Source: Fibrobacterota bacterium (GTDB lineage: Bacteria > Fibrobacterota > Chitinivibrionia > Chitinivibrionales > FEN-1185). Taken from it: a stretch of DNA of 64,000 bases. The stretch lies in the NCBI GenBank assembly GCA_003165595.1, contig PLWQ01000009.1, forward strand, positions 203,516 through 267,515. Direction: 5' to 3'. The position numbers and the translations under genes are program-made. Below, piece by piece: positions 10,841-34,998 of this stretch (position 1 is its first letter; every line of letters starts with the position of its first letter). Below the pieces are notes generated by a model. It searched no databases, was not told the origin of the DNA, and worked only from the letters and a program-made list of their open reading frames with translations.

Positions 10841-13800
10841 TCACGCGGCCGGAGAAATCATGGACTGGACGTGCTTTTTTTTAAAGGCAAGTTTGAAAAA
10901 ATTACCCGTTGAGTCGCTATCAAGCCAGATTCGGCCGTTGTGGGCATTCATCACCATCTTGCAGAAGAAGAGCCCAAGGCCTTTGGAATATTGAGAGCCT
11001 TTGCTCTCGACCCGGGCATATTTGTCGAACAATAAGGATTTATCTTCGTCTGGAATTGGACTGCCGGAATTAAAGAAACACAGAATATTTTCTTCGCCTT
11101 CGGCTTCCAGGCTTATCACTACCCCACCGCCCCTTCCAACATATTTTGCCGCATTGCTGAACAGGTTCTGCATCACACGTTCCATGAGGTAAAAATCCGC
11201 ATCAATCGCGAACATGTCCTTTGTGTTGTCCAAAAAGCGTACAGAAATGTTCTTTTCCTCGAACATGACGTTGCGGCTCAATTGCTCTGCCATTTCGAAA
11301 AGGACATTTTTTGTGAGCATCTCTTTCTTCAGGACCAGCTTTCCTTCTTCCATCTTTTCTATATCGAGCATGTTCGATGCAAGGCTCACAATCCCGGAAC
11401 AGCAGTCCGTGACAATCCTGGTTGTCTTGAGAACTTTCTCTTCCCCTGGAAACTGTCTGGCAAGCAGTGTGGTATTGCCCTCAATGCCGGCGGCATAATT
11501 CTTGATGTCGTGCACGATAGTCCCGCTTAAGAGGGTTTTCATGCGCTCAGAATCAACGATCCTCAGGTTGTAATCTGCAAGCTGTTTGTTCTTCTCGCGG
11601 ATGTCCGCCGTCTGTTCCCGCACCTTTTTCTGCAGGTCGCGGTTAAGCCGCTTATAGGAGTCCATGAGGTAGGCGTTTTCCAGAAGGATGCTCGCCTCAG
11701 CCGCAATGATGAGCGCTGTCTTCTTCGAGTCATCGGAAAAAAGACCGGTAACCATATTGTTTCCCAGGTAAACGCACCCATGGAACAATTTTCCGCGGGA
11801 TAGCGGAACACACAGCGCAGAACGGATATCTTTGTCCAAATCACCGGCAACATCCCTGTTCCTGACTCCATCTCTAACAAGTATTACTTCCCGGGTTTCT
11901 CTCACCTTTTCAACGATAGTCTTCGAATAGCTTACACTATTTTCAGAAACGGTTTTACCCTCAAAGTCCATGAAAAGCGACTGATTCTGGTGGTTCTCAT
12001 CCCCGCCCACAAACAGACCGCCGAACTGCGCACCCGTAGCCGTGATCATAGAACGCAAGATCCTGTGCAGAAGTTCACTGATGTCATCTATATTCTGAAT
12101 TGAATTGCTGAGATCGTACAGGGTATTCACCCTCAACTGGTTCACTCCTGCAGCAGTGGTGAATGACGTAACCGGATTCGTCGTTGTTTCTTCGCCTTGT
12201 ATGACAATGTGCTCGGTTTGTTGCAGGCAGGACGAATCCACCTTGTCCTTGATGCGGTCTGTTTCCAGTTTGGCCCCGCACCAATCGAACAGCTTGTATG
12301 CCTCGTTGTATTTGTCGCGCGCCTCTCCCGGAAGGTTGCAAAAGTCCTCAAGGAAATTTGCGTAATCACGGATGGAACGGGCTTCCTCGTAGCGCATATC
12401 AAGTGAATGGTGGGCTTTTATGGCTTTCTGGAAATTCCGGTGGGCTTTTTTCTTATGGTTTTTGAGTGCATGCCACCAGGCTTTGGAACGGTAGTAGGAA
12501 CCCATATGTGCAGGATAATTCATTGCAGAAATTAAATGAATAAGAGAATATATGTGAAAATACAAAATCAACTTTGCAGCTGAAACATCAATACGGGTTA
12601 TCCCCTTTTTTCTTCCAAGTAATTCCTTAACAACCAAATCACAATACATTGAAAATGCAGGCACATGATGTTCTGAGTTAATATTTTTCCGCATTATAAT
12701 AGGAATCAATTCAGTAAGTCTTTTATATTCACATTCTCGTTTGTCCTCTTGAGCTTCAATCTCGGCAAAGAACAACCCTACCTCTGTTTGGGACAGAAAA
12801 GAGGTAACATTGCTCAAGAGATGGCCGATTTCTTGCATTTCCTGAGGATTGACTCCGCGACCCCTGATACAAGAAATAAGATTTGAGGCAGCCAGAGCAG
12901 TAATCAGGAAATGTTTTTCATTGACCTTGTGGCAAAGATTTAGCGTTCTATTTATTCCATTAATAGAATCGTCGAGGCGTCCTCGCAAATAGGAGGTTTT
13001 CCACAACTGTTCTGTACAGATTATTTGATCGCCAACATCACCAATCGAACTATAATTCTTTATACTATCGGTTAGCAGCCTGCCGCTTTCTCTCCAATTT
13101 GCAAAATAGTATTGTACCAATCCTCCAAAGGATTGCCCAAACGCAGAGATATCTTTACGTTTAATAATTTGAGCAATTCTTAGTGATTTCCCCAAGTACA
13201 CCATGGATCGTTTCTTGAGAAACATCTGACAAGCGGGAACGATATGACAGGCATAGGTTTCAACTTTTTCATAACTATTTATGACCCTGTCAGCAAGATT
13301 AAGGGCTTTGAAATGAACAAAGAAGGCCTCTAACATGTCTTCAAAGTATAATGAATAAGAAAGCTTATTGAGAATTCTTAGCTTAAGGAGACTGTCCGAG
13401 TCCCTTTTTCTACCAACAAGGTATCGACCACCAATGGACAGCACAAACTGAACGAAGACTTCCCAACATATTAACAGAACCACATATATGCGTTTATACC
13501 TTAAATGGATTCCCAATTCTTCCAAAGCATTTTTAAAAATCGGAATTGATTTGTCGTATTTGCCAAGATTGTGATGGATTGTGCCTATTTTGTAATTCAG
13601 TTCAAAACGACGAGCCCTGTCTAGTGTCCTTGTGTTTTCCTGTATATTATAAAATATTTTCAGCGCTTGCTCGTTTTTTCCCGTAAGCATCAAAATATCA
13701 CCAAAAAATACTTCAACCTTAAGAGGATCAATTGGCGGTGCAACATTTATTTTAGGGCATTGCTTCAAAAGAAATTGGGTGTTCTTGAAATACCGGACAG

Positions 13801-16003
13801 CAACATCAAAGGCAACCTGTTCCACTGCGAATGTGGCGGCATTAAATGATACTTCTATCGCTTTTGTCAGGTTTTTCGTTTTCAGGTAACATTCGGCGGC
13901 ATTGTAAACATATCCCCTGTTTTCAAGAATCATTGCCTCGTAAATGCCAGCCAACCGTTCATAGAGCCTTCCCTTTTCATCGAGCTGAATGCCTTCCGCA
14001 ATGGATTCCTGGATACGGTCGTGCGAAAATGAAAATCCGCCCTTAAAATGAGCGATTATGAAGCCAAGATTTTCGAACCTATGCAGACATATTTTTGCCT
14101 GGGTTTCATTTACATTGCCAAACTTTTCAAGAAGTGTATTATCAAATTTTCCCTGGATGAGAGACAACAGCGTCAGACAATGGCGTTCGTCTTTGCTGAG
14201 CTGTTCCTCTTTACCAAGAATAAGAGAGACAGAATCGAACTTTGTCGGCAAAAGTTCTGTCTGGGCAAGTTTAAATGTCCATCCGCGCTCTTCTCGCACT
14301 AAAAATCCCATATTGACCAGATACCGTATGGCTTCAGCTAAAACAAACGGGTTTCCGTCTGTTTTGGTGAAAAGCATTTCAACAAGTTCTTCGCTGTTCT
14401 TAACCTCATTGAACCTCGAAGAAATAAGCTCTTTTGTTTCATCACGAGTAAAAGGCTGAATATGGATAAGGCGCTCAATGCCGATATTATGCAAATCATT
14501 ACCGAAAACGTAGAGATCTGTTTCGCTTGTATCGGTACGGTAATTATACACGAGCATACATGGCGGTTTTTCCTGCATCACTCGTTTGCATATTCCAAAA
14601 GTGACAAAATCTATCCACTGCAAATCGTCTATGAAGATGATGAGAGGTTTGATATCGCACAAGGTGAGAAGCAGCGTGGTGAGGACATGGGCTACACGGT
14701 CAGCTTCCTTTTCCGGTTCGACTTTGTCCACCATCCGCACTTCAAGGAAGAATTCCTTCATTTCAGGAATTGTCTGACAAATGACTCCAGAATATTCGGC
14801 AAGTTGATTGTTGATTGCTTTTTTAACCTCTTCCCTGCTTTTTTCCGATTCCCGGTTGATTCTTGCGATGAACTCACATACAATATGCCGGAAAATCGAG
14901 TACGGCTGGTGAGGAGTAAACAGGTTGCACTTTGAAGGCAAGAAGAAGCAGTTGCTTTCCGTAATCCTGGCGCTGAATTGTCTTACAATTTCGGTTTTGC
15001 CTGTTCCGGAGCGGGCGTAAATCAGAAAAGAGGAAAATTCCCTGTCCAGAAGCTTATTGAAACCTTTTTCTAGGTAGTTGATCTCGTTTTCGCGAGCAAT
15101 GAAAAGCTTGCTCCTGTTGACCGAGGCTATTGCGTCCTGTTCACCAAGGATGAACAAACCATCCGTATGACCTTCCAGCTCACGAAATGCATGTCGCAGG
15201 TCTGCCTTGAACCCCTCTGCTGTCTGGTACCGGTCGTCCGGAGAAGGCTTGAGCGCCTTGAGCAGAACCGCGTTGAGTGTCGCGTTCATCTTTTTTATCG
15301 GCGGCACTTCTCTCTTTAATGTCGCATCAAGGAGGTCAGAAATCGAATTACTACTGGTATGATTTCCCAAAGGCAGACTGTCGGCAAGAAGCCTGTACAG
15401 GATAAGCGCGGCGCAATAAAGATCTGTTCGCGTGTCTATTTTGAAATCCGTAAAGCCCATCTGCTCAGGGGCCAAATATGGCAGTGTACCAACGATCCTG
15501 CCTTCAGGTAGCTTCTGCGCCTCTTCCTCGGTCATGGAAATGCCGAAATCCAGGAGCTCAGCGCCTTTTTCGTCGTCAAGGAAAATGTTGCAGGGATTGA
15601 TATCCGCATGGATGATTCCCCTGGCATGGATGTATCCAAGTGCATCAAGAATCTGGAGAATGATGTTGACTGCATCATGCTCTGTAAAATGAACCCCATC
15701 TTCAAGCGTCTTTGCAAGGGTCTGGCCTTTTCTAAAGGGATAAATGATCGAATATGATTTGTCGTCGACGAACGTCTCTATTGGCCGGGCGATACTTGGA
15801 TGGTCGAGCGCGGAAACGATATCCATTTCCCGTCTGAATCTGATCTTGCGGTTGATTGTGTCTTTTCCCGCCCCGGTATTTTCCTTAAGGGATTTTAGCA
15901 GAAAATGCTCGCCTGAATCCTTCTTCTTGATAAGATACACGTCACTGTCTCGACTAATGGAGATGGGATTTAGAAGATCGAATTTTGAGGAGAGGGATTC
16001 CAT
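10841..16003 (-). CDS. giant hybrid sensor: Ser/Thr kinase - AAA ATPase - helical repeats - GAF - histidine kinase
   Basis: 1,720 aa. Residues 1-270 are a Hanks kinase domain with lysine near 35, HADINPCN near 133, DFG near 155 and LAPEQ. From about 310 comes an AAA/NACHT-like ATPase with P-loop ARSGTGKTE (near 333) and Walker B IIFIDDLQWID (near 456). About 640-1230 is a helical, TPR-like stretch. About 1270-1430 is a GAF domain, then a coiled coil. HisKA has its histidine in GTIVHDIKN (near 1497), and HATPase_c has NLFSNAAKYV and KGLGLFFCK. This is the architecture of the cyanobacterial hstK-type proteins. The catalytic-loop lysine of the kinase (DIKP) is asparagine here and the glycine loop is missing, so the N-terminal kinase may be weak or a pseudokinase. 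No dedicated response regulator is adjacent. Confidence 0.9.
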   Translation of the reverse strand: MESLSSKFDLLNPISISRDSDVYLIKKKDSGEHFLLKSLKENTGAGKDTINRKIRFRREMDIVSALDHPSIARPIETFVDDKSYSIIYPFRKGQTLAKTLEDGVHFTEHDAVNIILQILDALGYIHARGIIHADINPCNIFLDDEKGAELLDFGISMTEEEAQKLPEGRIVGTLPYLAPEQMGFTDFKIDTRTDLYCAALILYRLLADSLPLGNHTSSNSISDLLDATLKREVPPIKKMNATLNAVLLKALKPSPDDRYQTAEGFKADLRHAFRELEGHTDGLFILGEQDAIASVNRSKLFIARENEINYLEKGFNKLLDREFSSFLIYARSGTGKTEIVRQFSARITESNCFFLPSKCNLFTPHQPYSIFRHIVCEFIARINRESEKSREEVKKAINNQLAEYSGVICQTIPEMKEFFLEVRMVDKVEPEKEADRVAHVLTTLLLTLCDIKPLIIFIDDLQWIDFVTFGICKRVMQEKPPCMLVYNYRTDTSETDLYVFGNDLHNIGIERLIHIQPFTRDETKELISSRFNEVKNSEELVEMLFTKTDGNPFVLAEAIRYLVNMGFLVREERGWTFKLAQTELLPTKFDSVSLILGKEEQLSKDERHCLTLLSLIQGKFDNTLLEKFGNVNETQAKICLHRFENLGFIIAHFKGGFSFSHDRIQESIAEGIQLDEKGRLYERLAGIYEAMILENRGYVYNAAECYLKTKNLTKAIEVSFNAATFAVEQVAFDVAVRYFKNTQFLLKQCPKINVAPPIDPLKVEVFFGDILMLTGKNEQALKIFYNIQENTRTLDRARRFELNYKIGTIHHNLGKYDKSIPIFKNALEELGIHLRYKRIYVVLLICWEVFVQFVLSIGGRYLVGRKRDSDSLLKLRILNKLSYSLYFEDMLEAFFVHFKALNLADRVINSYEKVETYACHIVPACQMFLKKRSMVYLGKSLRIAQIIKRKDISAFGQSFGGLVQYYFANWRESGRLLTDSIKNYSSIGDVGDQIICTEQLWKTSYLRGRLDDSINGINRTLNLCHKVNEKHFLITALAASNLISCIRGRGVNPQEMQEIGHLLSNVTSFLSQTEVGLFFAEIEAQEDKRECEYKRLTELIPIIMRKNINSEHHVPAFSMYCDLVVKELLGRKKGITRIDVSAAKLILYFHIYSLIHLISAMNYPAHMGSYYRSKAWWHALKNHKKKAHRNFQKAIKAHHSLDMRYEEARSIRDYANFLEDFCNLPGEARDKYNEAYKLFDWCGAKLETDRIKDKVDSSCLQQTEHIVIQGEETTTNPVTSFTTAAGVNQLRVNTLYDLSNSIQNIDDISELLHRILRSMITATGAQFGGLFVGGDENHQNQSLFMDFEGKTVSENSVSYSKTIVEKVRETREVILVRDGVRNRDVAGDLDKDIRSALCVPLSRGKLFHGCVYLGNNMVTGLFSDDSKKTALIIAAEASILLENAYLMDSYKRLNRDLQKKVREQTADIREKNKQLADYNLRIVDSERMKTLLSGTIVHDIKNYAAGIEGNTTLLARQFPGEEKVLKTTRIVTDCCSGIVSLASNMLDIEKMEEGKLVLKKEMLTKNVLFEMAEQLSRNVMFEEKNISVRFLDNTKDMFAIDADFYLMERVMQNLFSNAAKYVGRGGGVVISLEAEGEENILCFFNSGSPIPDEDKSLLFDKYARVESKGSQYSKGLGLFFCKMVMNAHNGRIWLDSDSTGNFFKLAFKKKHVQSMISPAA

Positions 16004-16093
16004 ACACTGACCTCAATAAGCGCAGACATACTCTTGCAAGAAGGTGACGGCACTTAACCCGATGCCAAAGACCAGATTAAATGATTGTTAAAT

Positions 16094-16121
16094 TGTATAA
16101 TCAGGAATGGTGGACTGTCAA
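16094..16121 (-). promoter_or_regulatory. sigma-70-type promoter of the giant sensor gene
   Basis: Minus-strand TTGACA (16121-16116), 16-base spacer, TATACA (16099-16094). The predicted transcript starts about 85 bases before the ATG at 16003. Confidence 0.6.
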
Positions 16122-16303: not shown

Positions 16304-17647
16304 CTATCTCAAATTCCATCTTGCGGGTAACTTCTTCAACACTTTCTTCAAATGATTCGCTCGATCGGAAAATGCTTTTTCGTCATAGATTTCATTGTAC
16401 AACCAAATAAGGCCATCTTCAGTCGCTTTCTTGCCTATGTTATCTGAATACAACATGATGTCGTCAAAACTAAATTTGCCCCAGTCAATTGCGGAGGATA
16501 TTCTTCCATCTTCAAGAGCCCATTGAAAAAGCTTTGTTCCCGGAAATGGGGTTAAAAAAGAAAATTGGGCATTGCAATGATTTTTGATTAAAAAATTGCG
16601 TAATATTGGAAATGTATCCTTCGTATCATGCTCAAATCCAATAATAAATGTCCCATAAACAATAATACCATGATCCTGAATTGTATTTACAGCACCTTCA
16701 TAGTATTTCATATGATTGTATTTCCAATTTACAGGATCGAGTTTGAATAGACTTTCTTTTTCAAGACTTTCAAATCCAATGAGCACTACTTGGAGACCTG
16801 CCCTATAAGCCAATTGCAGCAATTCTTCATCTTCAGCAATACCGATGTCTGATTGAGCACAAAACCTTATTTTAAGCGGAATCAATTCTACTAGAAGGCT
16901 TTTTGCAAACTGCTTATCGATAAAAAGGTTATCGTCAACAAATACGATTAACCTGTTGCCGAACAATCTCTGAATGGTCCTGATTTCTTTTAAAATTTGG
17001 GAAACCTCTTTTTTTCTTATCCTTTTTCCGTGCATTTTAGATACGATACAAAAGGAGCAGTCATGAGGGCATCCCCTCGTTGCCTGCACGGGTATCATAT
17101 TGAAATAATCTTGTCCTTTATTAATTTGATCGTTTTTTAACAAATCATAGCGTGGGATCAAAGCATTTCTCAAATCGAAATGTTCGTCTTGCGGCATTTG
17201 GTAGAGACTTTTCGGAGATCCCGCTTTAAATTCATCCAAAAACTTAGGCAATGTTTTTTCGGCCTCACCTAAAAATACGTAATCAGCGTATCTCGATGCC
17301 TCTTCGGGTACTACTGTAGGATGAATTCCTCCAATCGCAATCGGGATCTTTCGATGCCTAAATGTTCTAGCAATCTCGTAGGCCCTTGGAGCTTGCAATG
17401 TCATTGAGGTTAACGCAACAAAATCATATTCTTTCGAAAGATCAATTGTAGACAGGTCCTCATTTTTAAAATCAATTTCCGTATCTGGTGGAAAATAACT
17501 GGCTATTGTCAATAAATTTAACGGAGGGATAAACCATGGCCGAATAAATTTTTTGCACTTTTCAAACATGGCGTTTATTGCCGCACTCGAAGAACGCCGC
17601 GGTTTTGCTGGATTAATAAGTGCAACTTTTTTAATTGATCGCTTCAC
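16304..17647 (-). CDS. B12-binding-type radical SAM protein of the acyl locus
   Basis: 447 aa. N-terminal cobalamin-type domain (KVALINPAKPRR, YDFVALTSMTLQAPRAYEI, IAIGGIHPTVVPEEA, YVFLGEAEKTLP), then a radical SAM domain with the cluster motif RGCPHDCSFC near residue 200. Later come FVDDNLFIDK, VVLIGFESLEKESL and GTFIIGFEHDTKDTF, all typical of the class. No clear DxHxxG B12 ligand motif is visible, so cobalamin may or may not be bound. Starts at a GTG with GGGAAA upstream. It is the last gene of a five-gene same-strand run with ACP, acyl ligase, SRPBCC-PilZ and AAR-like reductase. A role in modifying an acyl chain is inferred from context. Confidence 0.88.
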   Translation of the reverse strand: MKRSIKKVALINPAKPRRSSSAAINAMFEKCKKFIRPWFIPPLNLLTIASYFPPDTEIDFKNEDLSTIDLSKEYDFVALTSMTLQAPRAYEIARTFRHRKIPIAIGGIHPTVVPEEASRYADYVFLGEAEKTLPKFLDEFKAGSPKSLYQMPQDEHFDLRNALIPRYDLLKNDQINKGQDYFNMIPVQATRGCPHDCSFCIVSKMHGKRIRKKEVSQILKEIRTIQRLFGNRLIVFVDDNLFIDKQFAKSLLVELIPLKIRFCAQSDIGIAEDEELLQLAYRAGLQVVLIGFESLEKESLFKLDPVNWKYNHMKYYEGAVNTIQDHGIIVYGTFIIGFEHDTKDTFPILRNFLIKNHCNAQFSFLTPFPGTKLFQWALEDGRISSAIDWGKFSFDDIMLYSDNIGKKATEDGLIWLYNEIYDEKAFSDRANHLKKVLKKLPARWNLR

Positions 17648-17708
17648 AAGACGTTTCCCGATGTTATTTCGCTGATACGATGTTTGAATATTATTACATC
17701 AACAGATA

Positions 17709-18830
17709 CTAAAAAGCCTTCTTCTCCCACTTCTTGACATATGTGTCAATTTCACTTTCGTGATAAGTATGATGTGCAATCGTGAAAGCGGTGCGCATTC
17801 CTTCAACGGAATCCAAAATCGACAAATATTGATGAAGTTTTTCGCGATTTATATTTCCCCTACCCCAGGAACATGGCAATTGAGGATACAAAGCCATTAG
17901 TATTCCCTCTACCTGGCACCCATAAAATGTATATGTAGACGGCAAACCCAGGTCTTGTCCAGTGTCTATCTCAAAAGGCAATGCCAAGACCCCTCCATGA
18001 AAGATGAAAACATCTGGGCGCAATGGAGAATTAATTCTTACGTTGAGAGGAGATGACGCATCGCAAACAATGGTATATGGTTCAAATTCCCTCAGGGTAA
18101 TAATTCCCTTGTATGCGCTTGTCACAAAAATAACAATATCCGCCCTGGAAATCGCTTGTTTGTTTTCTTCGCTGCTGAACAGCTCTAATTCGCATGTGGC
18201 TTGTGCCCTGTACTTTTCCGCCACTTCTTCCAATTTGCCCCTGCCTCGGGCCGTCAGTAGCAGTCTTTGCACCTTGTCGCAGAAATACCCTGTGCAGCCG
18301 CTGCCGATGTCTCCGGATGCGCCTACAATGGCCATGGTTGACTTTGCGAGGTCAATTCCAAACCGTGTTGTGATCCGCTCTATTGAGCGCACAATAACGG
18401 CTGCTGTAAGTGTATTTCCTGATGTCAGCTTTATTCCGTGTTTTTTCGAAAGATCCTCTTCGCGGCCCTGGAGAATTATGGACGTGAAGCCACCCAGCGC
18501 AGCAACTGTACACCCCTCTTGCGCAGCAATGACAATTGCATCTTCGATCTTATCCCCTATTTCCTTGAGCTTGATGTCCCTCATTTCCGGAAGAAAAGGC
18601 GCGATAACGACAATTCCCTCCACTGATCCAGAGCCGCTGAAACCGACCGGGTTTATGTCCTTTATCTTGAAAGCCGGCGTCCATTCAAACAACTTTATTA
18701 GGAGGCGCTTATCAAACGACTTGTCAGCTAGGTTTCTTTCAGTCCTGAGAGTATTGACGATACCTCTAAACTGTTCCACGTCCGCGGGATGTCCAATGCA
18801 GGCAAATTTGTTTGGAGATGCAGTCGACAC
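17709..18830 (-). CDS. long-chain acyl-ACP reductase-like protein (AAR family)
   Basis: 373 aa. It resembles the cyanobacterial fatty acyl-ACP reductase that makes fatty aldehydes for alkane synthesis. Shared features in order: start F-A-C-I-G-H-P (F-G-L-I-G-H in AAR), APFLPEM, ALGGFTSIIL, TSGNTLTAA, the NADP-binding loop IVGASGDIGSG (residues 168-178), LLLTARGRGKLEEV, DIVIFVTSAYKGI, and SWGRGNI near the C-terminus. The acyl-thioester cysteine of AAR appears conserved in YGCQVEGIL (C305). No aldehyde deformylating oxygenase gene is in the window. GTG start, GGAT about ten bases upstream. Expected reaction: acyl-ACP plus NADPH to fatty aldehyde; substrate chain unknown. Confidence 0.82.
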   Translation of the reverse strand: MSTASPNKFACIGHPADVEQFRGIVNTLRTERNLADKSFDKRLLIKLFEWTPAFKIKDINPVGFSGSGSVEGIVVIAPFLPEMRDIKLKEIGDKIEDAIVIAAQEGCTVAALGGFTSIILQGREEDLSKKHGIKLTSGNTLTAAVIVRSIERITTRFGIDLAKSTMAIVGASGDIGSGCTGYFCDKVQRLLLTARGRGKLEEVAEKYRAQATCELELFSSEENKQAISRADIVIFVTSAYKGIITLREFEPYTIVCDASSPLNVRINSPLRPDVFIFHGGVLALPFEIDTGQDLGLPSTYTFYGCQVEGILMALYPQLPCSWGRGNINREKLHQYLSILDSVEGMRTAFTIAHHTYHESEIDTYVKKWEKKAF

Positions 18831-18927
18831 TGGCGAATATCCGATGCGCTCGATGCTGATGTGGATAATGCCTTTACGTCAGGCGGATTTAACAGCCGTC
18901 GGAGAGCTAAACCGATAGCCTACATAG

Positions 18928-19728
18928 TCAGGAATAAATTGCTGTTCTCGGCTCCATGGCAAGGAACTTGCCTAGCGTCATGACATGCCTGCTTTGAAGC
19001 ATTTTCACGATTGCGAGAAGGCGGTCTTCCTCGATAGGCTCTTTGAAAATAATACGGTATTTTTTATCGAAAGACTCCTGATGCAGGGATTCCGGCCTCA
19101 GATCGAGCCCGCAGGCCTGCATGGAAACCGGTCTTTCAAGGTCTTCCTCGCTGCTGAACATCATTCCCTTGCGGGAGATGTCGTCGATTTTGGTCTCTAT
19201 TGTTTTCCCGTCGAATATCATTGCTTCAAATACTCCCACTTTATAGCGCCGCTCCGTCCTTTCTTCCTGCGCAATTTTATGCCGGCTGATTTCCCCGGCA
19301 ATTCCGTTTAGAAAAGCCTTGAAATTCACCTGCATCTTTTCCTTAAAGACAGGTCCAAAAAGGTCCTCTATGATGGGAATTCCCACGTTGTAGCTGGCTG
19401 AATAAACAATGGCTATGCCGCCGTCAGGAGAGTCTTCCACATGAAAAGATCCTGTATACTGCTCAAAATCGCCGGAAAGGGCCTTGAAATTGACTGTGTA
19501 ATTGTCTTTGTCGAGAATATCTTTCTCAATCCAGTTGACAGGTGCTCCGTCGAAGGTGACGTCCCATTCGGAAACCTGTTCAATCCCGGTCTTTCCGGTC
19601 AAAATTATCTGGTCAATGTTTTTGCTAAGAGAAGGGAACTTAGAAAAATCGGAAATGACGTTCCACGCGCTGCCTTTACGAATGCGATCGCCGACTATTG
19701 TTTCCGAAGAGATATGCTGTAAATTCAT
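18928..19728 (-). CDS. SRPBCC domain fused to a PilZ (c-di-GMP) domain
   Basis: 266 aa. Residues 1-155 look like an SRPBCC/polyketide-cyclase-type ligand-binding fold (SAWNVISDFSKFPSLSKNID, VSEWDVTFDGAPVNWIEKD, YTGSFHVED), similar to coenzyme Q-binding or START-like proteins. The C-terminal 100 residues carry the PilZ signature: RTERRYKV (RxxxR), then DDISRKG (DxSxxG), the residues that bind cyclic di-GMP. The ATG at 19728 has AAGGT four bases upstream; a longer frame from 19788 has none. It could hold a hydrophobic acyl intermediate under c-di-GMP control (inference). It lies 97 bp before the AAR-like gene and 222 bp after the ligase gene. Confidence 0.8.
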   Translation of the reverse strand: MNLQHISSETIVGDRIRKGSAWNVISDFSKFPSLSKNIDQIILTGKTGIEQVSEWDVTFDGAPVNWIEKDILDKDNYTVNFKALSGDFEQYTGSFHVEDSPDGGIAIVYSASYNVGIPIIEDLFGPVFKEKMQVNFKAFLNGIAGEISRHKIAQEERTERRYKVGVFEAMIFDGKTIETKIDDISRKGMMFSSEEDLERPVSMQACGLDLRPESLHQESFDKKYRIIFKEPIEEDRLLAIVKMLQSRHVMTLGKFLAMEPRTAIYS

Positions 19729-19950
19729 AGGTACCTTCTCGTGATGAAAATGAATATGAATCTTCTCGTAGCCTACTGTCGAGCACAAAACATCAAATCA
19801 AAATCGAAATTAATTGATTTTCAATGCGATTATGGCAAGACAATACAAATTGCATGCTTGTCATGAAATGAATATAGTATCACAGATTATTAGGCGCAAT
19901 ATTTTTTTACAGTTCTTGTGGGGAGATCTTATCTGGGCGGGAAACCCTTT

Positions 19951-21315
19951 TCAGGACAGAAATTCAAAACTCTTTGGGACTTTGTATTTGGTAATATTTT
20001 CCAGACACCATTCTCTGTATATCTTCTGGAATTCGGGGCTATTGTTCCGCAGTTGCACTTTGGCTTTCACTTTGTCACCCATCAACTCATCAGGTTCCCC
20101 AAAAACCTCCACATTCATGACATTGTTGTGTCTTTTCATGAAACGTTCAAGCTCTGCAGGATAAATTTTGTTACCGCCAGCATTAAGCATTCTTTTCTTG
20201 AGTCCGGAAAGATGGATATACCCGTTTGTGTCGATTTTCCCCAAATCGCCGGTATGAAACCACCCATCGACTATGACTTTTTGAGTTGCGACATCGTTGC
20301 AGAAGTATCCTTTCATGACTGTTTTCCCACGGACACAGATTTCTCCCATTTGCCCCGGTGGAATATCAGATTTGTCTTCCGAGGATATTCTTATTTGACA
20401 GCCCGCGAGTGGAAGGCCTACTGAATCTCTGTAAACAACGGCGGCTGGAGGATGCCAGGTTATTGCGAGCGAAGTCTCCGTGAGACCATATCCTTCCCAA
20501 ATATCGATGCCCGTGTTCTTCTTAAAATTGTTGGCCACTCGTGCAGATAATTTGTTGCCACCGCAAATCATTAACTTGACACTACTAAATCTGGGTGCCG
20601 TTTCTTGTTCCTTGCCCAGCAAATAGTACACGAACGGTACCGCATGAAAATGCGTAATGGACCTTGTCTCAAAAAGCCGTGCAATATTTCTTGTCTTTTC
20701 CAGCGACGATGTCTCAGTTATAATAAAATCTCCCTCAACGAAACACGGAGCAATTACCCCGCTTTGTAATGCGAATAAATGATGATATGATATTGGTGCG
20801 CAAGAAACTGTTCCGTGCGTCAAAGAAATACTCTCAATTATCGCTTCGGCGCTCACCGAAAGATTCTCATGCGTCAGCATCGCGCCTTTGGCAAATCCGT
20901 CATCCGCTGCGGTATACAGCATGATCGCCACGTCGTCCAGCCCCTTGATCCTCGTCGGGCTCAATTGGTAGTGTTTTACCTCTATCTCCTTGTAAAAATC
21001 GAAAACGTCGGTTTGCCTGTCGGGCCTGATGAGTGCGCCAGGCGGCGAGTCCTTCATCATTTCTTCGAGTTCGAAATGTTTGAGCGCAGGGTCCACTAAA
21101 ACGCAGATGCGACCCGCCTTTATGATGCCGAACAGCGCATACACTGTCTTAATGTGATTGGGGGCAAAAAGATAAACGAACGGAGAATTGGAAATGAACC
21201 TTTTGGTGAGGTTCTCCGCCACAGCGTCGATGGAAGCGCGAATGGTCTCAGGCGAATAGGTCTTGTCGTTAAAAAAGATGTTTCCGAAATGCAGGAAATC
21301 GGTCAATGGCTGCAT
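19951..21315 (-). CDS. ANL-superfamily acyl ligase with atypical P-loop and missing A10 lysine
   Basis: About 454 aa. Recognisable AMP-binding features: ALFGIIKAGRICVLVDPALK, CAPISYHHLFALQSG, EGYGLTETSL, GEICVRGKTVMKGYF, GWFHTGDLGKID and LKKRMLNAGGNKIYPAELE. Two active-site parts are unusual. The A3 phosphate loop reads LYTAADDGFAKGAM instead of the Ser/Thr/Gly-rich form, and the protein ends ...YKVPKSFEFLS before the A10 lysine used in adenylation. The start at 21315 is chosen because the longer frame overlaps the ACP gene; the ribosome site is weak. It lies 31 bp behind the ACP gene. Likely role: loading or handling an acyl group for that ACP, possibly without normal ATP chemistry. Confidence 0.85.
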   Translation of the reverse strand: MQPLTDFLHFGNIFFNDKTYSPETIRASIDAVAENLTKRFISNSPFVYLFAPNHIKTVYALFGIIKAGRICVLVDPALKHFELEEMMKDSPPGALIRPDRQTDVFDFYKEIEVKHYQLSPTRIKGLDDVAIMLYTAADDGFAKGAMLTHENLSVSAEAIIESISLTHGTVSCAPISYHHLFALQSGVIAPCFVEGDFIITETSSLEKTRNIARLFETRSITHFHAVPFVYYLLGKEQETAPRFSSVKLMICGGNKLSARVANNFKKNTGIDIWEGYGLTETSLAITWHPPAAVVYRDSVGLPLAGCQIRISSEDKSDIPPGQMGEICVRGKTVMKGYFCNDVATQKVIVDGWFHTGDLGKIDTNGYIHLSGLKKRMLNAGGNKIYPAELERFMKRHNNVMNVEVFGEPDELMGDKVKAKVQLRNNSPEFQKIYREWCLENITKYKVPKSFEFLS

Positions 21316-21346
21316 AATTTGTAAGGTTTTCCCTCGCGGTGAGAAG

Positions 21347-21595
21347 CTATCCAGCCTTGGGCAACATTTCGTTTCCAACGATGGAAAGAAATTCGTTGAG
21401 CGTTGTGGCTTCCATGGCGGAAATCGGTATTTCTATACCGAACTCCTTTTCCAGTCTCGCCAAGACCGCCACAAACTGCATTGAGTCCATATTCACCTGT
21501 TCACGCAGATCCGCATTCGGGTCGATGGAATTGAAATCCAATGCCACTTCCCTGCTTATCACGCTGAAAATGTTTTGTTTGACCATGTCTTCCAT
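21347..21595 (-). CDS. acyl carrier protein
   Basis: An 82-aa stand-alone ACP. Phosphopantetheine would attach to the serine in NMDSMQFV (S38; DSM in place of the common DSL). The following helix ARLEKEFGIEIP is typical. The ATG at 21595 is preferred because GGGGGTG lies just upstream; an in-frame ATG at 21610 has no ribosome site. First gene of the acyl locus, with a good promoter in front. Its pairing with a ligase and a reductase suggests a dedicated carrier rather than the housekeeping AcpP. Confidence 0.9.
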   Translation of the reverse strand: MEDMVKQNIFSVISREVALDFNSIDPNADLREQVNMDSMQFVAVLARLEKEFGIEIPISAMEATTLNEFLSIVGNEMLPKAG

Positions 21596-21622
21596 TGTGC
21601 GCACCCCCATGCAGGAATTTTA

Positions 21623-21652
21623 ATTATGCATTGCTGTGATACTTCTTTTCAA
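21623..21652 (-). promoter_or_regulatory. sigma-70-type promoter of the acyl locus
   Basis: Minus-strand TTGAAA (21652-21647), 18-base spacer, CATAAT (21628-21623), about 28 bases before the ACP ATG. Confidence 0.55.
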
Positions 21653-21791: not shown

Positions 21792-22922
21792 CTATAATTG
21801 CAGGCGGTCTGGTTGATCGCTCTCATCGGAATGGTTTTTGATCACAAACACGAATGTGGTAGACGGCGGTGAGCTTTCGCCCTCGACCCATATCTCGCCT
21901 CCCATTGACTCTACCGCCATTTTGCAAAAGGTCAGGCCAAGGCCGAAATTGCTGGTTCCGGAATTGTGCCTCATGAGGTGCATGCTTGCGAACTTGTCGA
22001 AAATCGTCTTTCGGTGATTTTCTTCAATGAAGGAGCCGGGGTTGCGAATAGCGGTCCGGAGATTCCCTTCGTTGTCCTCGTCGATTTCAACGGTAATCTT
22101 GTCGCCGGACGGCGTATATCGAATGGCGTTGGAAAGGATATTGAACAGAACGCGAGAGAACAGCTCTTTGTCGGAAACTATGACGTATTCTCGGTCACGG
22201 CCGTATTTGACCTGGACTGTTCTGGCCGACGAGGCGATTTGCTGTCGAATGGGGCCGACGACCTTTTCGGTCTCTCGATTTGCCACGAATTCTTCTTTGG
22301 TAAGTGGAAACGTACCGGCTTCGAATTTGGCCACGCTTAGCATGTTCTCGATCATGGATTTCATTTGCAAGAGGCCGGCATCTCCCGTGGCTACAATGCG
22401 GCGCTGTGAATCAGTGAGATTCTTTGCAAGAAACGTCTTCGACAGTTCCCAAGCTCCGGCAATGCATTGCAGCGGATTCTTCAAGTCGTGGATGAGTATC
22501 CCGAAGTACAGTTCGCTGAGCTTTGCCATGTTTCTCTTGGCAATGACCCCGGGAATCTTTTTCAAGAAATCCTTTTCGTCGAAAGGCTTGGTAAGGTAGT
22601 CGGCCGCGCCCCTTTTCATGCATTCGAGCCCTATAGAAAGGGAGTCGTGCGAGGTGAACATCATCACTTGTATGTGCTTGAATCGCTCCCGTATTTCGGG
22701 CAGGAGCTCTATGCCGGTCCTGCCGGCTCCCAAATTTATGTCAAGCAGAACCACATCGGTTTCCGGATGTTCGTCGAGAAACTGAATACCCTCGTCGGCA
22801 TCAAGCGCATAGTTAGCCGAGAATCCGATTGTTTCAAGCAGGCCGGATACGCCGATGCAAATCGCCATTTCATCGTCGATAAGAAGAATGTTGGCCCGGG
22901 GCGTACCGTCGGAAGAATTCAT
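21792..22922 (-). CDS. response regulator receiver-histidine kinase hybrid
   Basis: About 376 aa. An N-terminal receiver domain (ILLIDDEMAI, phospho-acceptor in VVLLDINLG, switch MMFTSHDS, KPFDEKDF) is followed by a HisKA domain with LIHDLKNPLQ and an HATPase_c domain (NILSNAIRYTPSGD, GLGLTFCKMAVESMGG). No membrane segment or sensor domain: it takes its input from another kinase through the receiver. The start is set at 22922 because the promoter -10 box ends three bases before the longer frame's ATG at 22970. It is divergent from a STAS gene. Confidence 0.9.
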   Translation of the reverse strand: MNSSDGTPRANILLIDDEMAICIGVSGLLETIGFSANYALDADEGIQFLDEHPETDVVLLDINLGAGRTGIELLPEIRERFKHIQVMMFTSHDSLSIGLECMKRGAADYLTKPFDEKDFLKKIPGVIAKRNMAKLSELYFGILIHDLKNPLQCIAGAWELSKTFLAKNLTDSQRRIVATGDAGLLQMKSMIENMLSVAKFEAGTFPLTKEEFVANRETEKVVGPIRQQIASSARTVQVKYGRDREYVIVSDKELFSRVLFNILSNAIRYTPSGDKITVEIDEDNEGNLRTAIRNPGSFIEENHRKTIFDKFASMHLMRHNSGTSNFGLGLTFCKMAVESMGGEIWVEGESSPPSTTFVFVIKNHSDESDQPDRLQL

Positions 22923-22972
22923 GTGGACATTTCCGTCCGATTGCGAAAGGAAAAGCCGGTGTGTGACCATTA

Positions 22973-23116: not shown

Positions 23117-23461
23117 ATGAACATAGACGTCTATAAAAAGGGTGCCTATCTGGTTTTCCGGATTCAGGAGGATGTAGGCCTCAGCACCGAACTCTCGGAC
23201 CTGCGCAAGCGAATCGAGCAGGAATTGTCCGCCGGCGCACGGGACGTGGCGATAGCATTTACCCAGTCTTCGTACCTCTACACAAAATCAATAGCCGTAC
23301 TTATCGCCTGTTCGGAGATGATTAAGGACGCGGGCGGTCACCTTGCCATTGTTGAGGCCAATAAGGACATTCTCGACATTCTTTCGGTTATCGACTTCGA
23401 CAAAATGATTCGGATCTACAGCGCGGAAGAAGAACTCGTTTCCTCGCCCGCCACCACCTAG
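23117..23461 (+). CDS. STAS domain protein (anti-sigma factor antagonist-like)
   Basis: 114 aa with the STAS layout: VYKKGAYLVFRI, ELSDLRKRIEQELSAGARDVAIAF, SSYLYTKSIAVLIACSEMIKDAGGHLAIVEAN, ILSVIDFDKMIRIY. The usual phospho-serine loop is replaced by YLYTKSIAV, with a serine still in place. ATG with GGGAG nine bases upstream. Likely a switch in a partner-swapping pathway, but no anti-sigma kinase is adjacent. After its stop a small hairpin (23464-23484) lacks a U tract. Confidence 0.82.
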   Translation: MNIDVYKKGAYLVFRIQEDVGLSTELSDLRKRIEQELSAGARDVAIAFTQSSYLYTKSIAVLIACSEMIKDAGGHLAIVEANKDILDILSVIDFDKMIRIYSAEEELVSSPATT

Positions 23462-25378: not shown

Positions 25379-26143
25379 TCAGGCATTAATCCTTTGCATC
25401 AGCTTGGACCGGAGCTTCAGGATCACCTTTGAATGAATCTGGCTCACGCGCGATTCCGATATGTCTAGCACAACCCCGATTTCCTTGAGTGTAAGCTCTT
25501 CGTAATGGTACAAAGCAATAACGAGCTTTTCCTTTTCCGGAAGCCCGGCAATCGCTTCTTTTAAAATATCCTTTACCTCATTGAAGCCAAGTTCCTTGAG
25601 CGGATTCTCCGATCCCGGATCCTCGATAGTGTCTATTATCCTGAGTTCCTTGGAGTCGGTTTCCCGATCGGGCATCGCCTCTTCGAGCGATACGATTGTG
25701 GCGGGGGTCACTTCGGAGAGAATCTCCTCGAACTCCTTCATGGAGATATTGAGTTCCTTGCACACCTCGTCGTCGTACGGCATCCGTCCAAGTTCGTTTT
25801 CAAGTTTCGCGTACACTCGCTGAAGATCACGTGCTTTCTGACGAACCGAACGCGGCACCCAATCCATGGCGCGCAGGTCGTCGAGGATCGCGCCGCGTAT
25901 CTTGTGGCCCGCGTACGTCTCGAACTTGAAGCCGCGCTCGGGCTCGAATGTCTCCACGGCCTTCACAAGCCCCAATATACCCGAACTCACAAGGTCGTCG
26001 CGGTCCACCGAGGCCGGAAGATTGATTGCGATCCGTTGGGCGATATACTTTACCAGCGGAGCATATTCCAGCAGCAGTTTATCTTTTGCGACTTTGGAGC
26101 CGGTCTCCTTGAAATCCTTCCAAAGGTTGTCCAGGCTTGCCAT
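25379..26143 (-). CDS. fliA: flagellar sigma factor sigma-28
   Basis: 254 aa with the FliA/WhiG layout. Region 2: LLLEYAPLVKYIAQRIAINL, DDLVSSGILGLVKAVETF, FKFETYAGHKIRGAILDDLR. Region 3: RMPYDDEVCKELNIS. Region 4: LPEKEKLVIALYHYEELTLKEIG and ISESRVSQIHS. It directs RNA polymerase to late flagellar genes. Its likely targets in this window are the promoters at 1654-1680 and 58803-58830. No flgM anti-sigma gene is seen nearby. Confidence 0.97.
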   Translation of the reverse strand: MASLDNLWKDFKETGSKVAKDKLLLEYAPLVKYIAQRIAINLPASVDRDDLVSSGILGLVKAVETFEPERGFKFETYAGHKIRGAILDDLRAMDWVPRSVRQKARDLQRVYAKLENELGRMPYDDEVCKELNISMKEFEEILSEVTPATIVSLEEAMPDRETDSKELRIIDTIEDPGSENPLKELGFNEVKDILKEAIAGLPEKEKLVIALYHYEELTLKEIGVVLDISESRVSQIHSKVILKLRSKLMQRINA

Positions 26144-26173
26144 GCGTTATTCCTTTACAAGAAAATCATCTCT

Positions 26174-26527
26174 CTATGTACCCTTTTTCTTCGACGCGCT
26201 TTTGGGTGTCCCGCCGTGCGGAGCAGGAGTGCCGGCGGCCGTATCCGGATGCGTTTTCTTCTTTTCGTCGTGGATGCGCTGAAGCAATCCTCCTTCGATT
26301 TCGTCGGTCTGGGTTGTTTCCACACCCGTTACGATACTCTTGAAAACTATATCACCCAGAATGAAACCCGCAAACCAGAACAGGACCGCTCCGCAGAAAC
26401 CTTTGAAGAGGGCCACCGCGGCAATCTGGGGATCGAACGGGTGCGCAGGGTCGAGACCTATAAAAAACACCACAAAGAACGTGATGATGCTCAGGATTCT
26501 TGCCGACTTCCTTATCCAATACACCAT
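26174..26527 (-). CDS. small membrane protein of the flagellar operon
   Basis: 117 aa. Two hydrophobic segments (ILSIITFFVVFFIGLD and AVALFKGFCGAVLFWFAGFILGDIVF), then a polar tail rich in K, T and P. Lies between flhG and fliA, a position often taken by small uncharacterised genes. No family recognised. Confidence 0.75.
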   Translation of the reverse strand: MVYWIRKSARILSIITFFVVFFIGLDPAHPFDPQIAAVALFKGFCGAVLFWFAGFILGDIVFKSIVTGVETTQTDEIEGGLLQRIHDEKKKTHPDTAAGTPAPHGGTPKSASKKKGT

Positions 26528-26536
26528 ACGTTCCGC

Positions 26537-27448
26537 CTATTGTGCGCCCTTCAAACGCGTCGCCGAGAGAAAACGGGAAAAGAAATTCTCGCGAGCTGCA
26601 ACCGGGCTTCCAACAAGCGCTCGTGCGCACAGGGCGGTTTGGCATCCGAATGCCGACCGCCGGGTCTCGGGGGAAGACGATGATTGCCGGCGCACGAAAC
26701 GGCCCACCTCCTTGTCAAACGGAATAATTCCGAGCAGGCGGAGCCGCTTACTAAGAAATTTTACTACGAGCGCATCAAGCCTGTCAAATGTTTCCTTGCC
26801 TTCCTTATCGGACGTCGCCATGTTCACGAGAACGCTGATCGGCAGGTTTCTCTTCGCGTAAAGAACTTTCACCATGGCGTAGGCGTCGGCGAGCGACGTG
26901 GGTTCCGGCGTCACTACTAGTAATGCCAGGTCGGCCGCGCCAGCAAATTCCGTTACCACTCTGCCGATGCCAGCCCCGGTGTCGATAAGCAATATGTCGT
27001 AGTGCCGTTCGAGGGCGGCCAGCTCACGCACCAGCAATCCCAATTGCATGGGTTCGAGGTTGGCCATGGCCTCCAGGCCGCTGGACGCAGGCACGATGCT
27101 CAGGCCGGACGGCCCTTGGGACACCACATCCGCCAGGCTGCACTCCTTGTTGACATAGTGGTAAAGCGTGCGCGCAGGGGATACTCCCAGCAGAATGTGA
27201 ATGTTTGCCAGGCCCAGGTCGGCGTCGAGAATGAGAACTTTCTTTCCCATGCGCGACAGGGCGATACCCAGCGAAAGGCAGATATTCGATTTTCCAACGC
27301 CGCCCTTGCCGCTGGTTACGGCTATGCTCCTGCACGTGCCCGAGCCGCCGATTGGCGCGGCGGGATCGCTTGGGCCTTCCTGCGCCAAAGGAGCGCCGGA
27401 CAGCGGCTGCCGGAAGGATTCTCGGAGTTTCTGCGCCTGATCGATCAC
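26537..27448 (-). CDS. flhG: flagellar number regulator, MinD/ParA-type ATPase
   Basis: 303 aa. Deviant Walker A SGKGGVGKSN near residue 47, LILDADLGLANIHILLG, Walker B-like DILLIDTGAGIG and VTPEPTSLADAYAMVK. FlhG (also YlxH/FleN) limits flagellar number by acting on FlhF. The ATG overlaps the TGA of flhF (ATGA), which supports the pairing. The C-terminal 60 residues are basic and variable. Confidence 0.94.
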   Translation of the reverse strand: MIDQAQKLRESFRQPLSGAPLAQEGPSDPAAPIGGSGTCRSIAVTSGKGGVGKSNICLSLGIALSRMGKKVLILDADLGLANIHILLGVSPARTLYHYVNKECSLADVVSQGPSGLSIVPASSGLEAMANLEPMQLGLLVRELAALERHYDILLIDTGAGIGRVVTEFAGAADLALLVVTPEPTSLADAYAMVKVLYAKRNLPISVLVNMATSDKEGKETFDRLDALVVKFLSKRLRLLGIIPFDKEVGRFVRRQSSSSPETRRSAFGCQTALCARALVGSPVAARENFFSRFLSATRLKGAQ

Positions 27449-28731
27449 ATCGTGCTCCCCTCAAAGAGACGCTGGGCAAGCCCCTGTGGTTGCGCCAGTT
27501 CGATGTCGTCGGGCACGCGCTGGCCGAAAGTAAAATACGAAAACGGAATCTTTGATTCCACGGCAACGGTTAGAACATTGCCGAGCTTCATGGTCTCGTC
27601 CAGTTTGGTGAAAAGCAGCTTGTTGACGCCCAGAGGCCGGTACCGTTCGATGGCGCTGTTGAGGTCCGAAACCTTTGTGCCTGCGCTGAGCACGAGATGA
27701 ATATCGTCTGGGTGCATTGCCTCGATGAGAGCCGATAGATCCTGCATATGCTCTGCGCTTTTCTGGCTCCGGCCTGCGGTATCGACAAGCACCAGATCGC
27801 TGGCGGCGCAGGCGGCGAGCGCCTCACAAGACTCTTCGGGCGAAAACACGATATGGAGCGGCAGTCCCATAATGTCGGTGAAGGTCCTGATCTGTTCTAT
27901 GGCGGCAATACGGTACGTATCCGCCGTAATAACCGATACGGATTTTCTTTTGTTAAGGACATGGTATGCCGCGAGCTTGGCAAGCGTCGTTGTCTTTCCC
28001 ATGCCCGTAGGCCCGACGAACATGATGATGACGGGTTTGCCGGTTTTCATCCTGGCCGCCGCCGGGCACTGGAAGCATGCGGTAAGTTCCGTAACAAAGC
28101 CCTTGACCACGTCCGCGCCCTGCAGAGGTGATTGTCCCTGCATGCGCGCGACTAATGCACGTGCATCGTCGGCAGGGACCTCCGCATCGACCAGCTTGTT
28201 GAAGAGAACTGCCCATTCTCCGGAAAAACCGCCGCCTGTCGCCCCGCCGCCGGCTCTGGCCATCGACGAAAAAAGTGACTTGAGCTCGCGTATCCCCGCC
28301 TTGATTTCTTCGTATCCCTTGCCCATGTCCCCGCCGGGGGCGACTTCCCGTCTTGCCATTTGACCAGCGCCGTTTTTCCTTCGGTCCTCTGCCGATTCCT
28401 TGGCAAGGGCGGCCAGAGCCTCCAGGGCCGAGGCAGCCTTGGCCGAGTCCCGGGCACCGAGCCCGGCAGCGGAAGACGGCACAGTCGCTCCCGCCTGGGC
28501 GGTCTTTGGCCTTTTGTAAACGCCGGTATCGGACATATGAAGGGGCGCAAACGCCTGGTGCGCCCCTTTCGCGTCTTCGTCAATTGCCGCGGTCACCTCT
28601 ATTTCGGACTGTGAAAACAGCTTGCCAGGAACTCGCGCGGTCTTGAGAATCACCGCATCCTCTCCCAGGTCCTGACGTATCTGCAGCAGCGCTTCTTTCA
28701 TGCTCTTGGTGGTGTATTTCTTTATTCGCAT
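27445..28731 (-). CDS. flhF: flagellar placement SRP-type GTPase
   Basis: 428 aa. N-terminal domain MRIKKYTTKSMKEALLQIRQDLGEDAVIL, a variable linker, then the NG domain: G1 VGPTGMGKTTTLAKLA, VITADTYRIAAIEQIRTF, G3 LVLVDTAGRS and G4-like LLFTKLDET. FlhF sets the site of flagellar assembly, usually at a pole. It lies 30 bp after flhA. Confidence 0.95.
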   Translation of the reverse strand: MRIKKYTTKSMKEALLQIRQDLGEDAVILKTARVPGKLFSQSEIEVTAAIDEDAKGAHQAFAPLHMSDTGVYKRPKTAQAGATVPSSAAGLGARDSAKAASALEALAALAKESAEDRRKNGAGQMARREVAPGGDMGKGYEEIKAGIRELKSLFSSMARAGGGATGGGFSGEWAVLFNKLVDAEVPADDARALVARMQGQSPLQGADVVKGFVTELTACFQCPAAARMKTGKPVIIMFVGPTGMGKTTTLAKLAAYHVLNKRKSVSVITADTYRIAAIEQIRTFTDIMGLPLHIVFSPEESCEALAACAASDLVLVDTAGRSQKSAEHMQDLSALIEAMHPDDIHLVLSAGTKVSDLNSAIERYRPLGVNKLLFTKLDETMKLGNVLTVAVESKIPFSYFTFGQRVPDDIELAQPQGLAQRLFEGSTM

Positions 28732-28761
28732 GTCAACACGAATCCTTTGGTTGAGTGCTAC

Positions 28762-30849: not shown

Positions 30850-30853
30850 CGCA

Positions 30854-33931: not shown

Positions 33932-34998
33932 GCTGCAACCCTCTTTCTGAGCCGGTACACGTATGCGAGAATCTCCGCGACCGCGCTAAAGAACTGAAGC
34001 GGAATGTCGTCCCCTACGTTTACCTTGTCGAACATTGCGCGCGCCAGAGGCTTGTCTTCCACGATCGGAATTCCCGCCTCCAGTGCTTTCTTCTTGATTT
34101 GTTCGGCAACAAGTCTCTTTCCTTTCGCGACTACTCTCGGTGTGTCCATTACCGTAGGCTCGTAACGGATGGCGATGGCCAGGTGCGTGGGGTTGGTGAC
34201 CACGACGGTTGCCTTCGGCACCTCCTGCATCATCCGGCGACGTGCCATTTCTCTTTGCAGCGACCGCACCCTTGCCTTGATTTGCGGGTCTCCTTCCGAC
34301 TGTCTGTGCTCCTCCTTGATTTCCTGTTTTGTCATCTTGAGACCTCGCTCGGTTTCGTACCGCTGGTAGAAGAAGTCGAATAACGCCATGGCGAGGAGAA
34401 TGAGCGCGATGCGAAGGATAATCGTAAACGACAGCGACAGCATGAAAACGAGAATAGCTCCCACGGACGTATCGCCGAGCCCCACGAACTTGTCAAATGC
34501 ACCTTGCACGGTCACGAAGGCAACGAAACCAATAATGGTGAGCTTGAAAATATTCTTAAGCAGTTCCACAAATGATCGAAGGGAAAAGAGGCGTTTTGCA
34601 CCGGACAGTGGATTGATCTTTTCGAGCTTCGGAGCCAGCGGCTGGAGCGTAAACAGTATGCCGACCTGGATAATGTTCGAGAATACGCCAACGACGAGAA
34701 TGCCCAGGCAGACGGGCCAGCAGATGATGCACAATGTCAAAATTGCTTTCACGATGAGCCCGGCGGCAAACGAATAGTCGGACTGGGGATGCGAAATTAG
34801 AGCAAACATCTCCTGAAAATGCGCTACCATGCGGTGAAACATCCAGGGGCCAAAAAACTTGAGCAGCAGAAGGCTTCCAATGAGCACAAGCGCAGACGTC
34901 AAATCCGTGCTCTTGGGCACATTGCCTTTGTCGCGCGCCTCCTGCCGCCGTTTCTCGGTTGGGGCCTCGGTTTTATCTTCGTAAGACTGGTCCGGCAC
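33928..34998 (-). CDS. flhB: flagellar export switch protein FlhB
   Basis: 356 aa. Starts YEDKTEAPTEKRRQEARDKGNVPKS-like as in the family, has four membrane spans, and the self-cleaving NPTH motif in VVVTNPTHLAIAIRY near residue 270. It switches export specificity from hook to filament proteins. Its stop overlaps the start of the repeat-protein gene. Confidence 0.97.
   Translation of the reverse strand: MPDQSYEDKTEAPTEKRRQEARDKGNVPKSTDLTSALVLIGSLLLLKFFGPWMFHRMVAHFQEMFALISHPQSDYSFAAGLIVKAILTLCIICWPVCLGILVVGVFSNIIQVGILFTLQPLAPKLEKINPLSGAKRLFSLRSFVELLKNIFKLTIIGFVAFVTVQGAFDKFVGLGDTSVGAILVFMLSLSFTIILRIALILLAMALFDFFYQRYETERGLKMTKQEIKEEHRQSEGDPQIKARVRSLQREMARRRMMQEVPKATVVVTNPTHLAIAIRYEPTVMDTPRVVAKGKRLVAEQIKKKALEAGIPIVEDKPLARAMFDKVNVGDDIPLQFFSAVAEILAYVYRLRKRVAA

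Follow-up and report, generated by a model that had tools for sequence, protein, structure and literature searches.

The 64,000-nucleotide stretch of DNA analyzed here (the window) comes from contig 14 of a 98% complete, 5.39-Mb genome of an uncultured Fibrobacter relative in a Chitinivibrionales-like lineage of the Fibrobacterota and carries, on the minus strand at positions 16304 to 21652, a group of genes centered on a homologue of acyl-acyl carrier protein reductase (AAR). We tentatively favor, with slightly less than even confidence, the reading that this locus is an AAR cassette without ADO, which would make an aldehyde-derived specialized lipid within a motility-linked signaling locus, the product serving as a signal or regulatory lipid. 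An original prediction, made from the DNA letters, had described five minus-strand genes behind one promoter. The five open reading frames are present (acyl carrier protein [ACP], AMP-binding, SRPBCC, AAR, and B12-radical SAM proteins), and the families named for them were borne out by Pfam- and TIGRFAM-type profile matches. The conserved locus is wider than had been proposed, since a receiver-histidine kinase gene (hereafter receiver-kinase) and a large kinase gene also belong to it. In order of transcription, the locus reads as follows, with a divergent neighbor given last.

21792 to 22970, minus strand: receiver-histidine kinase (response regulator and kinase in a single chain; Pfam), a conserved upstream neighbor
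21623 to 21652, minus strand: promoter-like site TTGAAA-18-CATAAT upstream of the ACP gene (consensus scan only)
21347 to 21610, minus strand: ACP (PF00550, 42.9 bits)
19951 to 21315, minus strand: ANL-superfamily protein without P-loop and without A10 lysine segment (Pfam and alignments)
18928 to 19728, minus strand: fusion of SRPBCC (START-like hydrophobic-ligand pocket) and PilZ (Pfam Polyketide_cyc, alignment, and model)
17709 to 18830, minus strand: AAR homologue (TIGR04058, structure, and tree)
16304 to 17647, minus strand: B12-binding radical SAM protein, a predicted tailoring enzyme (Pfam)
16092 to 16121, minus strand: promoter-like site TTGACA-18-TACAAT upstream of the large kinase gene (consensus scan only)
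10841 to 16003, minus strand: large kinase of 1,720 amino acids (Ser/Thr kinase, AAA_16, TPR, GAF, and histidine kinase; Pfam)
23117 to 23461, plus strand: STAS-domain protein, divergent from the receiver-kinase; its orthologue in the related genome G001 is 70% identical and occupies the corresponding position

A reductase of the wider AAR family

The predicted product of 17709 to 18830, a stand-alone protein of 373 amino acids without Aminotran_3, belongs by its profile scores to the wider AAR family and not to the cyanobacterial equivalog, matching TIGR04058 at 119 bits (equivalog cutoff, 449.7) and PigE at 86 bits. Its best PDB sequence match was the cyanobacterial enzyme SeAAR (6jzq; E value, 1e-23; residues 9 to 333). 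When an AlphaFold2 model built from an alignment of nine relatives (pLDDT, 88.4; pTM, 0.90) was submitted to Foldseek, the seven best PDB matches were all SeAAR (6jzy; E values down to 7e-26), followed by the carmabin TAD domain. The NADPH-binding loop is kept (GASGDIGSG at residue 170; GxxGxIGS), as is the acyl-accepting Cys305 in YGCQVEG (motif at residue 303), which aligns with Cys294 of SeAAR; the cysteine occurs in every cassette member as well as in the rows for SeAAR, the PigE-type proteins, and the myxobacterial proteins. The tree comprised 34 AAR domains, with several long branches and with SeAAR as its one cyanobacterial sequence; in it, the cassette clade (support, 100/99) joined SeAAR at 99/95. 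The proposed AAR identity thus stands on fold, catalytic cysteine, NADPH loop, and tree, with neither a placement away from AAR nor loss of the cysteine in close homologues being seen. Homology strongly implies that the enzyme would act on an ACP-bound substrate and give an aldehyde.

The cyanobacterial alkane pathway was ruled out because the window genome holds no ADO: a search of it with TIGR04059 gave no match, which extends the earlier remark on missing ADO from the locus to the whole genome. The surprise once attached to an AAR outside cyanobacteria did not survive, since PigE (PMC8341465) and TamH (PMC9594044) are published reductases of this type and since myxobacteria and other Chitinivibrionales carry more of them.

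Distribution and organization of the cassette

The AAR alignment was searched against 168 genomes of the phylum, and full-length AARs of the cassette clade were found in eight (G000, G001, G006, G011, G015, G027, G030, and G035). Same-order relatives were assemblies labeled Chitinispirillaceae, Chitinivibrionales, or Fibrobacteres. The loci of the relatives, together with one outside the phylum, were as follows.

G001: receiver-kinase, SRPBCC-PilZ, AAR, ACP, ANL, radical SAM, thiamine diphosphate (ThDP) enzyme, large kinase
G030: the gene set of G001 minus radical SAM
G035: a set like that of G030, on two contigs with fitting ends
G027: AAR, ACP, SDR, ANL, another radical SAM, large kinase; receiver-kinase and SRPBCC-PilZ on a separate contig
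G006 and G015: two AARs around one ACP, beside receiver-kinase and SRPBCC-PilZ
G011: AAR, reducing polyketide synthase (PKS), large kinase; a second, interrupted AAR at the receiver-kinase locus
Polyangiaceae assembly L041: AAR, ACP, ANL, radical SAM, hybrid histidine kinase, SRPBCC without PilZ, ThDP enzyme

Gene content was largely conserved across the relatives and gene order was not, so that the proposed five-gene unit holds as a set and not as a strict order. Among 61 relatives, all eight genomes with AAR also had the receiver-kinase and SRPBCC-PilZ genes (Fisher P values of 1e-6 and 2e-7, respectively; 4e-5 and 6e-6 within the order). Orthologues of the receiver-kinase occurred in 14 of the 61, and it was accompanied by the large kinase in 13 of the 15 genomes having either. 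In the window, G001, and G030, these two lie on either side of the AAR cassette; the large kinase adjoins the cassette in these three and in G027, and in G011 with the PKS between. Genomes G021, G026, G029, G037, and G039, which are without AAR, have the two kinases on separate contigs, and neighbors of the receiver-kinase in some AAR-less genomes include FliD and FliS.

The single promoter was not borne out. Promoter-like sites numbered 19 against a shuffled background of 12.6 ± 3.0, a moderate excess only; the top-scoring site in this consensus scan precedes the large kinase gene, and a 222-bp gap before the SRPBCC-PilZ gene leaves room for a second transcription start. Comparison with homologues placed the likely starts of the ANL-like and SRPBCC-PilZ genes at 21315, not 21378, and at 19728, not 19788, respectively.

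Latescibacterota was considered as a further host phylum and is doubtful: L035, filed under that phylum, is a 4.9-kb contig whose radical SAM protein is 84% identical to that of a Chitinispirillaceae genome of the same sample series, and a binning error or recent transfer is the likely source of its cassette. A search of the Polyangiaceae and Latescibacterota genomes for the large kinase, made without a positive control, gave no match.

Several further AAR-type genes were observed. The second AAR of G011 (L021/L031:2360-3196) has an in-frame TAG and lies, possibly as a decaying gene, beside an intact SRPBCC-PilZ gene. In other Chitinivibrionales, AAR-type domains occur in large proteins (L032:6947-9844, L033:1051-5208, and L034:6536-13327). 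Two of these proteins are PigE/TamH-like fusions with class III aminotransferases, and one of the two also has an AMP-binding domain; in the third, which has 2,263 amino acids and includes an adenylation-type domain, the AAR-type domain comes last. Relatives of the Polyangiaceae genome (L096, L097, L098, L100, L101, and L102) carry proteins of ∼740 amino acids, closely similar in the six genomes, with an AAR-like C-terminal part and an N-terminal part of ∼300 amino acids in which Pfam found no family (L096 scanned). A plasmid search returned, where annotated, PigE-type proteins only.

An ANL-like protein without the adenylation motifs

The protein encoded at 19951 to 21315 had been called an ANL ligase; its membership in the superfamily holds, and its standing as an ordinary acyl activator does not. 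Where solved ligases have YTSGSTGRPKG (A3, [ST]SG[ST]TGxPKG), its P-loop reads YTAADDGFAKG, and the degenerate form T[AN]A..DG.AK recurs in all seven homologues, which span two phyla and include that of the Polyangiaceae. All seven chains also end before the segment with the A10 lysine (Px4GK), and the bases past the stop codon of the window gene show no resumption of the A10 domain. The A5 and A7/A8 motifs are kept in the homologues (GYGLTET and GWFHTGDLGKID, tested against GYGxTE and TGD). The A10 lysine is the key adenylation residue, and in a characterized ligase, point mutants at P-loop positions altered here suffered a 1,000-fold loss (Gly163) or lost all activity (Pro168) (PMC8388817). 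Because both the P-loop and the A10 lysine are lost in seven of seven homologues, the ANL-like protein is probably not an adenylating ligase. In the ANL superfamily, A10-lysine mutants retain the thioester half-reaction, so that AMP-dependent acyl-thioester exchange is a possible role for this protein. The subfamily offers a clean natural test of whether the thioester half-reaction can suffice alone.

The phosphopantetheine serine of the cassette ACP lies in NMDSMQF and is kept in the alignment of the window protein with six other homologues. In G006 and G015, where the duplicated AAR flanks the ACP (L028:1464-1730 and L029:644-955), threonine replaces this serine; an ACP domain is built into the PKS of G006 itself.

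Exchangeable tailoring enzymes

The radical SAM protein carries CxxxCxxC (CPHDCSFC) at residue 193 and exceeds the Pfam cutoffs for both B12-binding (45.0 bits; cutoff, 32.1) and Radical_SAM (56 bits), with homologues in the G001 (36% identity) and Polyangiaceae (33%) cassettes. It had been taken as a fixed part of the locus, which is not so: some relatives have this protein or a different radical SAM protein, and in others a ThDP carboligase or a PKS takes its place. Intact ThDP carboligases are present in the cassettes of four genomes and reducing PKSs in two. The ThDP enzyme keeps the HEGA and GDG...N motifs, and its nearest solved relatives are BbmA (8x3x; E value, 1.5e-63) and CsmA (8x3z; 6e-49), followed by acetolactate synthases. 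In G011, a PKS gene replaces the ANL gene; the PKS of G006, 45% identical to that of G011, adjoins the large kinase. No thioesterase or reductase domain was found in either PKS, which fits AAR as the releasing reductase and strengthens the case for an ACP-bound substrate and an aldehyde product.

SRPBCC-PilZ protein, kinases, and motility genes

Pfam did not report PilZ in the window SRPBCC-PilZ protein and called it in the G001 orthologue. The window protein has both PilZ motifs (RTERR and DISRKG; RxxxR and [DN]x[SA]xxG), with R157, R161, S185, and G188 invariant in 12 sequences, and by these motifs it is a candidate cyclic di-GMP (c-di-GMP) receptor. Its model (pLDDT, 84) matched START-like aromatase/cyclases and, lower, PYL plant hormone receptors. 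The c-di-GMP link of the original prediction is supported by a co-occurring PilZ-type protein and is indirect, since some genomes with the SRPBCC-PilZ gene have no cassette AAR and the Polyangiaceae SRPBCC protein is without PilZ. The large kinase keeps the catalytic HADINPCN, DFG, and HDIKN motifs, and its orthologues are 38 to 50% identical over ∼1,700 amino acids. A flagellar operon (25379 to 35809) with genes for a sigma factor, a ParA-type protein, an FlhF-type GTPase, FlhA, FlhB, and FliR begins ∼2 kb beyond the end of the locus.

Proposed function and alternatives

In the scheme that we favor, the acyl chain would be carried on the small ACP, with the ANL-like protein most likely swapping acyl groups between thioesters (from coenzyme A or the ACP of fatty acid synthase to the cassette ACP) through the thioester-forming half-reaction left to it, or holding acyl-ACP. 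AAR would take the chain onto Cys305 and reduce it with NADPH to the aldehyde, a step strongly supported by homology. The B12-radical SAM protein of the window genome may then tailor the aldehyde or the acyl chain, while in the related genomes with a ThDP carboligase the family chemistry suggests addition of an acetyl unit from pyruvate to form an alpha-hydroxyketone. The hydrophobic product could be accommodated in the START-like pocket of SRPBCC-PilZ. In what is the weakest step, it would most likely act as a signal or regulatory lipid on the neighboring kinases and on the flagellar/c-di-GMP machinery. If so, the fatty-aldehyde chemistry of alkanes and red pigments has been reused, possibly for swimming-linked signaling, in a poorly known phylum, by a cassette open to in vitro testing with few soluble proteins.

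Several points weigh against this reading. The co-occurrence tests take no account of common descent, and the genome of every relative is a draft interrupted by contig breaks. All three signaling genes occur in G021, G026, G031, and G039 without a cassette AAR; because they are also present in such genomes, they are not dedicated to the cassette product. Neither kinase carries a recognized sensor that would bind such a molecule, and none of the cassette genes was seen to encode an exporter. The cassette ThDP enzyme is absent from the window genome, the best match there being a 26% identical acetolactate-synthase-like protein, and no remnant of its gene lies within the window; an alpha-hydroxyketone is accordingly not claimed as the product of the window itself.

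Nearly as likely as the favored reading is that the locus is an ordinary regulated metabolite cassette (for a membrane or storage lipid, a wax precursor, or an antibiotic-like compound), in which the kinases only time production and the product is no signal. The tailoring genes swap freely (ThDP enzyme, two kinds of radical SAM protein, PKS, and SDR), which is typical of specialized metabolism; biosynthetic clusters are often flanked by kinases, and the signaling genes exist without AAR. The recurrence of the same regulators beside or around the cassette in several families, and the presence beside it of genes for a hybrid histidine kinase and SRPBCC in a second phylum, fit product feedback but do not require it. 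The boldest form of the signaling view, in which aldehydes or alpha-hydroxyketones made by AAR with the ThDP or B12-radical SAM enzyme are read by the SRPBCC-PilZ protein and local kinases to set motility, with the ANL-like protein as an AMP-dependent acyl-thioester exchanger, would be a new kind of signaling and is unlikely, though not negligibly so.

The version of the original prediction is distinctly unlikely. It has the ANL protein load a free fatty acid on the ACP, AAR form a fatty aldehyde, and the radical SAM enzyme alter the chain under c-di-GMP control through PilZ. The gene families are as it named them, and the TamA (ACP-ANL) and TamH (transaminase with AAR-type reductase) cascade does convert fatty acids to amines (PMC9594044); however, the loss of adenylation motifs described above, the unconserved radical SAM protein, and the Polyangiaceae SRPBCC protein without PilZ all speak against it. 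There is only a slim chance that AAR is an offloading or detoxifying side enzyme (e.g., in lipid repair) inserted by chance near signaling genes and inherited within one order, as its patchy occurrence (8 of 168 genomes) and variable gene order might suggest, given its linkage to the full partner set in several families and, in the Polyangiaceae assembly, to different kinases.

Other features of the window

Within the flagellar operon, a gene at 30854 to 33931, between those for FlhA and FlhB, encodes a 1,025-amino-acid protein with a Big_9 (Ig-like) domain. The gene at 4848 to 7028 encodes a single chain of 726 amino acids that joins two FHA domains to the ATPase and permease of an ABC transporter; it is 74% conserved near the large kinase of G001.

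Comparison with known systems

The literature searched contained nothing on AAR with ThDP enzymes or alpha-hydroxyketone signaling in this combination, nor on the biology of BbmA and CsmA, the nearest solved kin of a ThDP enzyme whose gene is found in the loci of relatives and not in the window. The CqsA/CqsS and LqsA/LqsS systems (PMC3376566) are alike in idea: genes of a single locus, including one for a histidine kinase, make and read a hydrophobic ketone signal. Their synthases are single pyridoxal phosphate (PLP)-dependent enzymes acting on acyl-coenzyme A and their kinases six-helix membrane receptors, neither of which was seen in this locus; the search for a PLP-dependent CqsA/LqsA synthase covered the cassette genes, with no genome-wide search made. 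ANL ligases such as feruloyl-CoA synthetase (8wev) share the overall domain and the A5 and A7/A8 motifs with the cassette subfamily, which differs in its degenerate A3 P-loop and missing A10 lysine segment.

The carmabin TAD domain (9e4s series) has an AAR-like fold (TM-score, ∼0.74) but sits in an adenylation-domain assembly-line protein and shows 14 to 17% identity. The PigD/PigE (prodigiosin) and TamA/TamH (tambjamine) pathways resemble the cassette in combining an AAR-type thioester reductase with the ACP and ANL parts of TamA or with the ThDP carboligase PigD (∼860 amino acids in L092 versus 590 for the cassette enzyme). In these pathways the reductase forms one protein with a class III aminotransferase, whereas that of the window stands alone in a cassette without aminotransferase; membership in the PigE/TamH group was thus ruled out, such fusions being found in other Chitinivibrionales. 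From SeAAR (6jzq/6jzy, TIGR04058), the window AAR differs in its 26% identity and in its partners (ACP, ANL-like, SRPBCC-PilZ, radical SAM or ThDP enzyme, and kinases, without ADO), yet the two share the fold (TM-score, 0.74 to 0.80), the active-site cysteine, the NADPH loop, and a full-length colinear alignment, as befits sister clades.

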